Positions 18,215-20,793 of a stretch of 30,961 nucleotides of DNA are shown here, piece after piece. This DNA comes from a virus. Under the pieces are notes generated by a model. The model saw nothing but the letters and a program-made list of their open reading frames with translations. It did not search any database and was not told where the DNA came from. The stretch's first letter is position 1, and each line of letters starts with the position of its first letter. The translations under genes were made by a program, and so were the position numbers. The stretch is from positions 1 to 30,961 of IMG/VR virus record IMGVR_UViG_3300035071_000090. One strand, written 5' to 3'.

Positions 18215-18423
18215 GACGCGATTTCCTCTGCGAGGGTTTCAGCTTGGGGCTCGACGAAAACCAAAGCGCCGCGCCGGCGCGGCAGCGCGAGCGATACGGC
18301 GCCGTCTTCGGAAAGGCGCGCGATTTCGGGAGCGATGACGCCGAGCTGCGCGGCGAGCGCTTCGCGTTCGTCGCGGTTCAGCGCGCGGCGCAGGCAGAGG
18401 GAATGACCGGCGATCTCAGTCAT
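18211..18423 (-). CDS. Unknown small protein of the cro operon
   Basis: The product has 70 residues from the ATG at 18423, which overlaps the cro stop by four bases; the longer frame would run into cro. It begins MTEIAGHSLCLRRALNRDER, followed by a helical segment with LGVIAPEIARLSEDGAVSLA and a short strand GALVFVEP. It is small, soluble-looking and mildly acidic. No known family is recognised. Tight coupling with cro and the next gene marks it as an early lytic gene. Confidence 0.6.
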   Translation of the reverse strand: MTEIAGHSLCLRRALNRDEREALAAQLGVIAPEIARLSEDGAVSLALPRRRGALVFVEPQAETLAEEIAS

Positions 18424-18635
18424 TGAACCTTCTCCGTCCCGCATTGTTTCATGGGCATGAAATCATTCGGCATAACCTCGCCGTGCGTGACTTCAGCGAT
18501 CTTTGAAAGATGCTCTGGCCTTGGATACCGAAGGAAATCGCGATATCGCCGCACGGTTTCTGGTGAAACTCCGAGGAGATTCCCAAATCCGGCGAGGGTC
18601 AGGCCGTTGTCGGCGAGATAGGCAGCTAATTTCAT
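18420..18635 (-). CDS. Cro-like repressor
   Basis: The 71-residue protein is a single helix-turn-helix domain: MKLAAYLADNGLTLAGFGNL, LGVSPETVRRYRDFLRYPRP, then HLSKIAEVTHGEVMPNDFM, where T-H-G-E-V-x-P-N-D-F is the usual Cro-type ending. It is transcribed away from cI from a promoter with an operator inside, as expected of a lytic switch protein. The ATG at 18635 is preferred to a TTG two codons upstream. The predicted transcript start lies one or two bases before this ATG, so the message is probably leaderless. It should bind the TCACCAT dyads and repress cI. Confidence 0.88.
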   Translation of the reverse strand: MKLAAYLADNGLTLAGFGNLLGVSPETVRRYRDFLRYPRPEHLSKIAEVTHGEVMPNDFMPMKQCGTEKVQ

Positions 18636-18642
18636 AATCAAA

Positions 18643-18671
18643 ATATCTCACCATAATGGTGATGGAGTCAA
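18643..18671 (-). promoter_or_regulatory. Leftward early promoter for cro
   Basis: On the minus strand TTGACT (18666-18671) and AGATAT (18643-18648) are separated by exactly 17 bases. The perfect dyad TCACCATTATGGTGA fills most of the spacer and touches the -10, so a bound repressor would exclude polymerase. The expected start point, about 18636-18637, lies next to the cro ATG. Confidence 0.85.
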
Positions 18672-18712
18672 GACGCCATTTCACCATTTTGACCTGTCGC
18701 CAAAATGGAGAG
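18648..18712. promoter_or_regulatory. Operators between cro and cI
   Basis: O1 is a perfect dyad, TCACCATAATGGTGA, at 18648-18662. A half-site TCACCATTTTGA (18681-18692) and an inverted CAAAATGG (18701-18708) follow, and the last lies against the GGAG ribosome site of cI. Together they give a cluster of sites in the 80-base divergent region, suitable for cI and Cro binding and for autoregulation of cI. Confidence 0.85.
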
Positions 18713-18715
18713 CCC

Positions 18716-19420
18716 ATGCAATTTTCTAAAATGCCCTTTAAAAACAAACTCCGCTTGATAAGATTGAGCCGCCTGGACGAAAGAGGGAAACCGCTTTCGA
18801 TGGCGGCTCTTGCGCGTCTAGCCGGGACATCGCCACAACAGATCGAACGCCTAGAAAAGAGCGACAGGAAATTCACGCGTGAGTGGGCGGAGCGTCTTGC
18901 GCCTCACTTGGGAGTGACCGCCAAAGAACTTATGTTCGACGGCGACGCCGAATCGTCGCTTAGGCCGGCCAATTTGGCCTATTCACATGTAAGGGGCGAA
19001 ACGGCGGCGGGGCGTTGGTTCGAACAGGATGAGTTAAACGACGAGGATAAGCCTTTGATTCCCTTGGTTCCGGGGCGGTTTTCCGGACTCGCGCAATTTG
19101 CCTTTAAGGTGATCGGCGTTTCCATGGATTTGCGAAAGATTAACAACGGTGATTACGTTATTTGTGTCAATTATTATGAAGCCAGGGAACATCCTTTATC
19201 CGGAGATATCGTCGTAGTGGAAAGAAGAAGGGGACAGCTTACGGAGAGAACATGTAAAGAGCTTGAACTAACTAATGGAGGTTTTTTGTTATGGCCAAGA
19301 TCTACGGACAAGCGCTTCCAAAAGCCAATTTTTGTTGCAAACAAGACCGATGCAGTCGGCGACGACGGGACCGAAATCGAGATCGTCGCATTGGTAATTG
19401 GTTGTTATTCTCCATTTTAG
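18716..19420 (+). CDS. cI: LexA-like phage repressor (HTH + S24 peptidase)
   Basis: This 234-residue repressor keeps the prophage silent. The HTH spans residues 26-72: LSMAALARLAGTSPQQIERL followed by EKSDRKFTREWAERLAPHLG. The S24 domain has the cleavage site Ala98-Gly99 (GETAAGRW), Ser136 in KVIGVSMDLR and Lys181 in ERTCKELEL, the Ser-Lys pair for RecA-stimulated self-cleavage. DNA damage should therefore induce the phage. GGAG lies five bases before the ATG at 18716; an upstream in-frame start would run through the operators. The last 130 bases also encode the start of the next gene in another frame. Confidence 0.92.
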   Translation: MQFSKMPFKNKLRLIRLSRLDERGKPLSMAALARLAGTSPQQIERLEKSDRKFTREWAERLAPHLGVTAKELMFDGDAESSLRPANLAYSHVRGETAAGRWFEQDELNDEDKPLIPLVPGRFSGLAQFAFKVIGVSMDLRKINNGDYVICVNYYEAREHPLSGDIVVVERRRGQLTERTCKELELTNGGFLLWPRSTDKRFQKPIFVANKTDAVGDDGTEIEIVALVIGCYSPF

Positions 19421-20004
19421 GCTTTACGGAACTAGCGCATGCGGAAATGCCGCCAGCGGATTGCTCTTCAATTACGGACGATAAGGATCGACTTCATTGT
19501 TATGATCTTCGCGCAAGCTCTGAAACGAAAGACAGAAAAGCGAAAGCAGCTGCTGTTTCTAATTGGAAAATACTTGAAAAGATGGATGATCTTACGAGGC
19601 ATAAATCGTTGAGATTGGAATTGCCTTCCGAGGAGGCGCGAGTTTTTGCTGCATATCAGCCCAATACACAATCAACATTATTACTTGAATGCATGGATAA
19701 GCATATTTCTATTATATTCGCCTTCGATGATCTCGTAGCTAACCGTAAAGTGACGGTCGATTATCGCATTGGCGACTCGGCGCCGAGGCATTCCATCTGG
19801 GATGCAACACAAGGCAGCAAGGGTTTTGGCGCTTGGGAAAGCAAGGAAGCGGTTCAAATGGCCGTCGAGATGGCTGGTGCCGACGAACTCTTTATAAAGA
19901 GTGATACGCGGATATTTTCGAGCACTGAGGCCCGCTACAAAACGGATGGGCTTCGTGAAATTTTAAATTCCCATGTTGAGGAATGCGGCAGGATTCTTCC
20001 CTAA
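19291..20004 (+). CDS. Exported VasI-like protein, probable lysogenic-conversion gene
   Basis: The product has 237 residues from the ATG at 19291, which has GGAGG nine bases upstream but lies inside cI in another frame. Residues 23-33 are Arg-rich, residues 35-48 hydrophobic (IGNWLLFSILGFTE), and AHA precedes EMPP, so a signal peptide with cleavage after Ala51 is likely. Mature residues include two early Cys (DCSS, LHCYD) and the VasI-like pattern LLLECMDKHISIIFAFDDLV, KVTVDYRIGD, GFGAWESKEAV, LFIKSDTRIFSST and a late HVEECG. Its DNA is AT-richer than the operons around it. A TTG start at 19402 would give a cleaner signal. It may change the cell envelope of the lysogen. Confidence 0.75.
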   Translation: MAKIYGQALPKANFCCKQDRCSRRRRDRNRDRRIGNWLLFSILGFTELAHAEMPPADCSSITDDKDRLHCYDLRASSETKDRKAKAAAVSNWKILEKMDDLTRHKSLRLELPSEEARVFAAYQPNTQSTLLLECMDKHISIIFAFDDLVANRKVTVDYRIGDSAPRHSIWDATQGSKGFGAWESKEAVQMAVEMAGADELFIKSDTRIFSSTEARYKTDGLREILNSHVEECGRILP

Positions 20005-20012
20005 AATTTGTA

Positions 20013-20053
20013 TCACCATATTGGTTGACGTATCACCATTTTGGTGAGACTAT
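20013..20053 (+). promoter_or_regulatory. Rightward promoter with two repressor operators
   Basis: TTGACG (20025-20030) and GACTAT (20048-20053) are spaced by 17 bases. A dyad TCACCATTTTGGTGA (20033-20047) fills the spacer, and a second site TCACCATATTGGTTGA (20013-20028) overlaps the -35, exactly 20 bases (about two helical turns) upstream. The sites match those between cro and cI, so the same repressor should silence the right operon. Confidence 0.88.
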
Positions 20054-20076
20054 GCCTCATCGCTTCCCGATGAGGC
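20054..20076 (+). promoter_or_regulatory. Hairpin covering the transcript start and ribosome site
   Basis: GCCTCATCG (20054-20062), loop CTTCC and CGATGAGGC (20068-20076) make a perfect 9-bp stem. The right arm contains the GAGG ribosome site of the gene at 20083. The promoter's expected start near 20060 falls in the left arm, so only readthrough RNA would form the full stem and be silenced. Confidence 0.7.
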
Positions 20077-20082
20077 TCCGCC

Positions 20083-20793
20083 ATGCTCGCGCCCAAAATC
20101 CTGATTGCCGTCGCCATCCTGGCGCTTTCCTACGTCTTCGTCAGCGCGATCGCCGGCGTCTGGCGCGACTATCGCGGCCGTCGCCGCGTCGCTCTCAAAG
20201 ACCCCTTCGAAGCCATCCCGCGCGAAGCCTATCAGGCCTACGGCCTGGCGCTCGCCGCCGTCGCATTCGCTACCGCGGGCAGCTTCCTCGTCGCGTTCGC
20301 GCCGACGTTGGCGCGTGCCGCAAGCAACACCGCAGCTCTCGCGGCCGCTGCGCCTGAAATGCGGCTTTCCACCATTGTCGTCATCGCTGGATTCGTCGGC
20401 GCGCTTTTCGGCGTGGCGCTTTGGTATTTTCGGCAAACGCTTGAGGATATCGCGCGGACCGACGCAAACGGCGCTGCCGCCTCGCCGGCATCAGTGATTG
20501 GTTCCATACTTTTTCATGACGACGGCCGCGGCGAATTGACTGCGTATCTTGGTGTCGATCTTTCCGGCCCCGATCGCCTTGGCGAAGGCCAGCAGCTCAT
20601 CAGGATCGACGATCACCTTCTCAAGGATGACTCCCGGCGCCGCGCAGCTCGCGACTATCTTGTTCATCTTGGCTTCCCACTCGTCGAAGGTGGAGACCAT
20701 TTCATCGTCGCAAATCTCTCGGATGCGTTGGAAATCCTCTCGCGTGAACCACGCCACGCCTACAGCTCTAATCTTCCCAATCATAAGCCCTGA
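20083..20793 (+). CDS. Three-helix inner-membrane protein, first gene of right operon
   Basis: The open frame gives 236 residues. Residues 1-125 are a clear membrane protein: helix 1 LIAVAILALSYVFVSAIAGV, a basic loop WRDYRGRRRVALKD, helix 2 at about 54-73 (YGLALAAVAFATAGSFLVAF), and helix 3 at about 95-115 (STIVVIAGFVGALFGVALWY). From residue about 137 the frame is antisense to a well-supported minus-strand gene, so the soluble C-terminal 100 residues are of doubtful meaning, although no earlier stop exists. GAGG lies seven bases ahead of the ATG. The function is unknown; superinfection exclusion is a possible role for such an early membrane protein. Confidence 0.65.
   Translation: MLAPKILIAVAILALSYVFVSAIAGVWRDYRGRRRVALKDPFEAIPREAYQAYGLALAAVAFATAGSFLVAFAPTLARAASNTAALAAAAPEMRLSTIVVIAGFVGALFGVALWYFRQTLEDIARTDANGAAASPASVIGSILFHDDGRGELTAYLGVDLSGPDRLGEGQQLIRIDDHLLKDDSRRRAARDYLVHLGFPLVEGGDHFIVANLSDALEILSREPRHAYSSNLPNHKP
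20491..20784 (-). CDS. Conserved small hypothetical protein, reverse oriented
   Basis: The product has 97 residues. The body, VAWFTREDFQRIREICDDEM, VSTFDEWEAKMNKIVASCAA, VIVDPDELLAFAKAIG and FAAAVVMKKYG, matches a family I recognise from many Hyphomicrobiales genomes and prophages, where a W-F-x-x-E-D-Y/F start, T-F/Y-D-E-W and a D-P-x-x-F/L-x-x-W/F pattern recur. Its function is not known. It is the only minus-strand gene between 18.7 and 30.8 kb and lies antisense to the end of the membrane-protein frame. It is also the only convergent gene in the right operon, so it may have arrived separately. Confidence 0.75.
   Translation of the reverse strand: MIGKIRAVGVAWFTREDFQRIREICDDEMVSTFDEWEAKMNKIVASCAAPGVILEKVIVDPDELLAFAKAIGAGKIDTKIRSQFAAAVVMKKYGTNH

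Follow-up and report, generated by a model that had tools for sequence, protein, structure and literature searches.

A stem straddling the predicted start of a PL-like phage promoter as a probable translational lock on lytic-operon RNA begun at the repressor promoter

A virus record of 30,961 bases, analysed as one window (the whole stretch at its full length), was found to carry a perfect 9-bp stem over the Shine-Dalgarno (SD) sequence of the first open frame of a lytic operon, with the predicted transcription start of that operon inside the left arm and a co-directional repressor gene upstream. Comparative and energetic evidence makes it very probable that the stem serves as a translational lock, which would silence the lytic-operon part of transcripts begun at the repressor promoter. 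The computed basis of this reading consists of the stem, its position, its energetics, the covariation of its arms and its recurrence behind repressor genes, and from it we infer the transcript ends, the existence of readthrough RNA, the translational block and the benefit to lysogeny.

Readthrough RNA from the repressor promoter would contain both arms, and the stable stem formed by them would hide the SD and leave the first gene of the lytic operon untranslated; Rho-dependent polarity would presumably silence the remaining operon as well. RNA from the derepressed promoter would begin at about A20059, just beyond the anti-SD segment, and would form at most a short 5'-terminal stem, which should leave the SD accessible. 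Translation of the VasI-like gene stops at 20004, 49 nt 5' of the left arm, so terminating ribosomes should not open the stem.

The right promoter and its stem

The following features of the right promoter and the stem were identified, all on the plus strand:
20025-20030, plus strand: -35 hexamer TTGACG of the right (PL-like) promoter, in a layout shared with the cro promoter and with relatives
20033-20047, plus strand: operator TCACCATTTTGGTGA inside the 17-bp spacer, 0 mismatches, a palindrome of the type seen at 18648-18662
20048-20053, plus strand: putative -10 hexamer GACTAT, a weak match at 17-bp spacing
20054-20062, plus strand: left stem arm GCCTCATCG
20054-20058, plus strand: predicted anti-SD part of the left arm (about -5 to -1), which RNA started at the promoter should lack
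20059-20060, plus strand: predicted transcription start, A20059 preferred, 6-7 nt past the -10 hexamer; the opening cost reaches its floor at 20059
20068-20076, plus strand: right stem arm CGATGAGGC
20072-20075, plus strand: SD GAGG, 7 nt 5' of the ATG at 20083

The inverted repeat GCCTCATCG/CGATGAGGC, perfect over 9 bp around a 5-nt loop, had been noticed in a preliminary description of the sequence, together with the GAGG of the 20083 gene in its right arm, and was confirmed at 20054-20062/20068-20076. The 86-nt fold gave z = -3.0 against shuffles, and no Rfam match was obtained in the window at the gathering score. Inverted repeats of 9 bp are not rare (six in the window), and the single case in the window is therefore suggestive only; the weight of the stem lies in its position and conservation rather than in the mere presence of a 9-bp repeat.

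The right promoter was not listed by a generic promoter scan because its -10 hexamer matches at only three of six positions, and its prediction is supported by the operator in the spacer and by the matching layout of the cro promoter. Since the left arm starts directly after the -10 hexamer, a normal start (about 7 nt on) lands inside the arm. The same geometry bears out the start in the left arm given in the preliminary description; its exact base, 20060, was not upheld, A20059 being best predicted.

The computed cost of freeing the SD was 12.4-13.3 kcal/mol for RNAs with 5' ends at 19990-20054, and then dropped stepwise to a floor of 3.8 kcal/mol at A20059 (3.8-4.2 kcal/mol for 5' ends at 20059-20066). 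Weak pairing of the SD persists in the native RNA (mean probability of being unpaired 0.13 for a start at 20060). That promoter-initiated RNA lacks part of the left arm, as first described, agrees with promoter geometry, yet this RNA is predicted to retain the inner AUCG/CGAU stem. The interpretation built on it, in which readthrough RNA carries the anti-SD and promoter RNA is without it, is backed by strong comparative and energetic evidence.

The immunity region of the window

Around the repressor, the following features were recorded in addition to those given above:
18420-18641, minus strand: cro-like gene, divergent from the repressor
18642-18671, minus strand: cro promoter (TTGACT 18671-18666, operator TCACCATTATGGTGA 18662-18648, GATATT 18647-18642)
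18656-19420, plus strand: S24/HTH repressor, cI-like (Peptidase_S24 8e-9; phrog_4 7e-16)
18697-18711, plus strand: further operator-like site between cro and cI, 2 mismatches
19291-20004, plus strand: VasI-like gene between the repressor and the right promoter (VasI 1.6e-8; phrog_1848)
20013-20027, plus strand: upstream operator copy TCACCATATTGGTTG, overlapping the -35 hexamer, 2 mismatches to TCACCANNNTGGTGA, in tandem with the 20033 copy, 20 bp apart
20083-20793, plus strand: first open frame of the right operon, 236 aa (phrog_22906, only at E 0.005)

The arrangement is lambda-like, with divergent cro and repressor genes, shared operators and a co-directional early promoter beyond the repressor. 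For the repressor, the internal ATG at 18716 is a likelier start than 18656. Operators of the form TCACC-N5-GGTGA flank the repressor unit; the two exact copies of TCACCANNNTGGTGA (18648-18662 and 20033-20047) both fall within the spacers of TTGAC promoters and are adjoined by weaker copies. By architecture, we take the VasI-like gene to be placed like rexAB of lambda, and the right promoter is presumably the counterpart of lambda PL.

The ATG of the cro-like gene in the window (18635) coincides with the predicted transcription start, giving a leaderless layout. Leaderless-looking cro-like genes, with the ATG at +1 to +3 of an operator-controlled promoter, were seen in the window and in six relatives (L032, L034, L058, L070, L093 and L098).

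The frame at 20083 has a hydrophobic N-terminal part with three apparent membrane segments by eye and no convincing family. No relatives of its protein were found in viral_contigs, genome_contigs or phages, so the hairpin is not traceable through its gene. A minus-strand frame at 20491-20784 with a match to phrog_4753 (E 3e-9) overlaps the 3' end of the 20083-20793 frame, and because of this overlap the true 20083 gene may be shorter. Further downstream, the N-terminal 110 residues (MRVNIYAEEM...) of the 20857-21594 gene belong to a family of unknown function present in 29 viral loci on varied contigs, none of which has a 20083-like gene adjoining; a search with the ParB-like gene gave one locus.

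Recurrence among relatives and with other operators

Relatives were collected by pattern scans for TTGAC plus the TCACC-N5-GGTGA operator, and 17 promoters were analysed in this orientation. Many pattern matches in genome_contigs were chance or unrelated and were dropped by eye; genome-wide pattern draws returned 2 of 397 and 2 of 298 genomes, with one new locus (L111). A co-directional repressor homologue was present upstream of 14 of the 17 promoters (for L068 via the overlapping locus L098); among these loci are records of Afipia (L058), Methylobacterium (L070) and Tepidamorphus (L068). In the readthrough RNA of 12 of these 14 promoters, two SD bases or more were paired with positions -1 to -6 at P > 0.5. 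The exceptions were L093, where the paired stretch lies between the SD and the ATG instead, and L095, where the SD is paired with +4 to +6; at L090 there was little energetic gain. Arm sequences vary (GCCTCATCG/CGATGAGGC, GTCCTCC/GGAGGAC, GCTCCCC/GGGGAGC, CTCCTCAT/ATGAGGAG, GCCTTCG/CGGAGGC and TCCATCGC/GCGATGGA), and the first genes 3' of the stem differ among the phages, so the stem goes with the promoter rather than with any single gene.

No such stem was found at L080, L092 or L094, which share the promoter type and have no repressor homologue in the locus. The promoters of L080 and L094 point away from cro and no co-directional repressor was found upstream, which possibly makes these two a natural control. 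The open frames upstream of L092 are co-directional and no hairpin is present there, and L092 thus stays a possible exception. Two contigs of one genome (L047 and L066, MAG SKS3.bin25) carry TTGACGGTTCACCATTTTGGTGAGTCTCTATTTCGG in a non-phage-looking context, possibly as a repeated mobile element.

The repressor query gave no match in viral_contigs and matched eight distant phages. Six further phages with window-like repressors were considered, DMCA being a seventh, found with the L034 repressor. The stem geometry accompanies unrelated operators in phiLM21, phiAX1 and Pan3 (in Pan3 with an opposite-strand gene between repressor and promoter), is weak in RHph_TM3_3_3 and RHph_Y25, and is absent from Mae-JY35 and DMCA. 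Rhizobium phage 16-3 (DQ500118) has a stem at its annotated PL, directly downstream of c and on the same strand: TATAAC is followed by TCTCCTC, which pairs with GAGGAGA, the left arm lying at about -6 to +1, and the opening cost falls from 8.7 in the long RNA to 3.0 at +1. Phage 16-3 and the window share the order of repressor and then PL on one strand and the position of the arm, whereas their operators differ.

For statistical analysis, the readthrough-minus-native opening cost of each leader was compared with 300 permuted leaders and with 300 random -6 to -1 segments, using 12 non-redundant leaders (L035 and L088 were dropped as near copies of L034 and L074). Fisher's combined p was 3.9e-12 against permuted leaders and 5.7e-10 against random segments (7.8e-11 and 1.1e-8 with the window excluded), values that are not exact since some leaders are mutually related; individually, 9 of the 12 leaders were below 0.05 against permuted leaders and 7 against random segments. 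Covariation was separated from generic anti-SD:SD matching by pairing left arms with the right arms of other phages. Mean arm pairing across 16 leaders was -13.2 kcal/mol in cis versus -8.1 kcal/mol in trans. None of 100,000 swaps was as good as cis (16 leaders, and likewise for the 12-leader same-operator set and for 17 leaders including 16-3), a test somewhat favoured by the omission of RHph_Y25, Mae-JY35 and DMCA, which have no clear stem; L080, L092 and L094, where no repressor was found, were also left out. Of 476 SD-led open-frame starts listed mechanically from 13 loci, 17 had a perfect stem of at least 7 bp over the SD, and right-promoter starts accounted for six of these 17. Judged by sequence comparison, this evidence puts the stem beyond chance, and the three predictions that follow from the logic first proposed hold in the related phages: the stem straddles the start, its arms covary and a co-directional repressor lies upstream.

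IMG/VR was also searched with the hairpin alone, using the pattern TCCATCGCN{4,8}GCGATGGAG, which returned 60 loci with 87 oriented sites (80 once identical ones were removed). A start codon came next at 32 distinct sites and was absent at 48; TTGAC beginning at -35 to -37, counted from the A that follows TCC, was present at 15 of the former versus one of the latter, with a chance expectation among the 32 of about 0.1 by simple arithmetic. The TTGAC-bearing sites had 14 distinct spacer sequences, several of them visibly palindromic. Upstream genes were checked at 21 loci, namely the 21 rows with a promoter score of at least 7, minus L075 (already counted) and L174 (a copy of L150), plus L166 and L175 (score 6). 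A repressor-type gene was located upstream on the same strand in 18 of the 21 (14 with co-directional repressor homologues and four with an HTH or S24 gene by Pfam), ending 56-85 nt 5' of the stem in 12 of the 18. Upstream sequence was shorter than 520 nt at L126 and L167, and no upstream repressor was seen at L165.

An inner AUCGC/GCGAU stem was conserved in the hairpin loci (L121-L177), and as AUCG/CGAU at 20059-20071 in the window, beyond what hiding the SD needs; in both it would stay as a 5'-terminal stem on the native mRNA.

On balance, we lean towards a general, operator-independent lysogeny lock: an anti-SD discriminator between -10 and +1 of PL-like promoters in many temperate phages (those with a named host mainly infecting alphaproteobacteria), which would make the lytic operon translatable only from self-started RNA. 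One large class would be bipartite, with an outer CUCC:GGAG switch and an inner AUCGC:GCGAU stem that the native mRNA retains at its 5' end, and the TCACC-operator group, with its predicted leaderless cro mRNA, would have both lytic promoters readable only on self-started RNA.

Alternative readings, terminators and known systems

The stem might instead act mainly in the native mRNA, stabilising its 5' terminus or controlling translation of the induced operon, since an inner stem of 4-5 bp (AUCG/CGAU or AUCGC/GCGAU) would persist there in the window, L075, L090, L111 and the hairpin-search set. We regard this as unlikely, as the outer anti-SD pairs lie mostly 5' of the predicted start, and L032, L034, L068, L093 and Pan3 keep the outer pairing without an inner stem; a function in the native mRNA may exist alongside the lock instead of competing with it. 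Slightly less credible is a second DNA operator at the start point, bound by Cro or another regulator, with an incidental SD overlap: the perfect 9-bp symmetry and the position at about -6 to +17 would suit a repressor site, but the arms vary among the TCACC-N5-GGTGA phages while pairing and the SD in the right arm are retained, and the hairpin found alone accompanies many different operators. It is highly improbable that the structure ends or pauses transcription of the repressor unit, for although it is a GC-rich stem just past that unit, no T run follows it, none of the detected terminator-like sites falls at this position, and several relatives have a separate terminator further upstream.

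Pattern scans gave no terminator between the repressor unit and the right promoter in the window, nor upstream in nine of the 14 repressor-linked loci, the window included. In four of the 14 (L070, L074, L088 and L111) a terminator-like hairpin lies upstream as well, so readthrough may already be low there; the match at L090 overlaps the operator and is doubtful. The translational lock would thus either replace termination or back it up.

Long transcripts of the T4 genes e, soc, 49 and I-TevI are known to have their SD sequestered, and the comparison with gene e made in the preliminary description is correct (PMC3014915). In both gene e and, by prediction, the window, long upstream RNA hides the SD and initiation at the proximal promoter leaves out the helix's 5' strand: the SD is predicted to be paired in the longer RNA, and promoter geometry places the predicted proximal start inside the 5' arm. 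T4 differs in using late TATAAATA promoters and in delaying lysis within the lytic cycle, whereas the window has a repressor-controlled TTGAC promoter (TTGACG-17-GACTAT, not a T4 late promoter) in a lysogeny region. The predicted lock thus works like that of gene e but outside the T4 late-gene family.

In IS10 and IS50, a strand of readthrough RNA sequesters the transposase SD, and RNA from the native promoter is without that strand; these cases concern the ends of transposons, as opposed to the junction between a phage repressor and a lytic operon. Lambda has the order cI-rexAB-(tImm)-PL, in which the repressor and accessory genes are followed by a co-directional, operator-controlled early promoter with a terminator before PL. 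In the window, by contrast, pattern scans gave no terminator ahead of the promoter, and the prediction is of an RNA lock in its place.

No lock between a phage repressor and a lytic operon was found described in PMC search listings, and none is mentioned in the parts consulted of PMC12429752 (phiLM21-like prophages) and of PMC3694467 and PMC10460002 (phage 16-3 and relatives). The best reading is that the principle is known and the setting, a widespread lysogeny-maintenance module, is new. In such prophages the repressor gene points at the lytic operon, and the avoidance of lytic leakage in lysogens is usually credited to terminators; a conserved RNA lock that forms part of the promoter would be a simple second answer. 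The anti-SD discriminator would also make PL-like promoters, and their start points, easy to recognise in genomes.

Because it lies at the annotated PL of the long-studied phage 16-3, the predicted lock is directly testable there. In that region (L179 35646-35551, minus strand), the first frame behind the promoter encodes 28 aa and is unannotated; L093 likewise opens with a frame of 27 aa, and in view of these two frames leader peptides may be common at such promoters.
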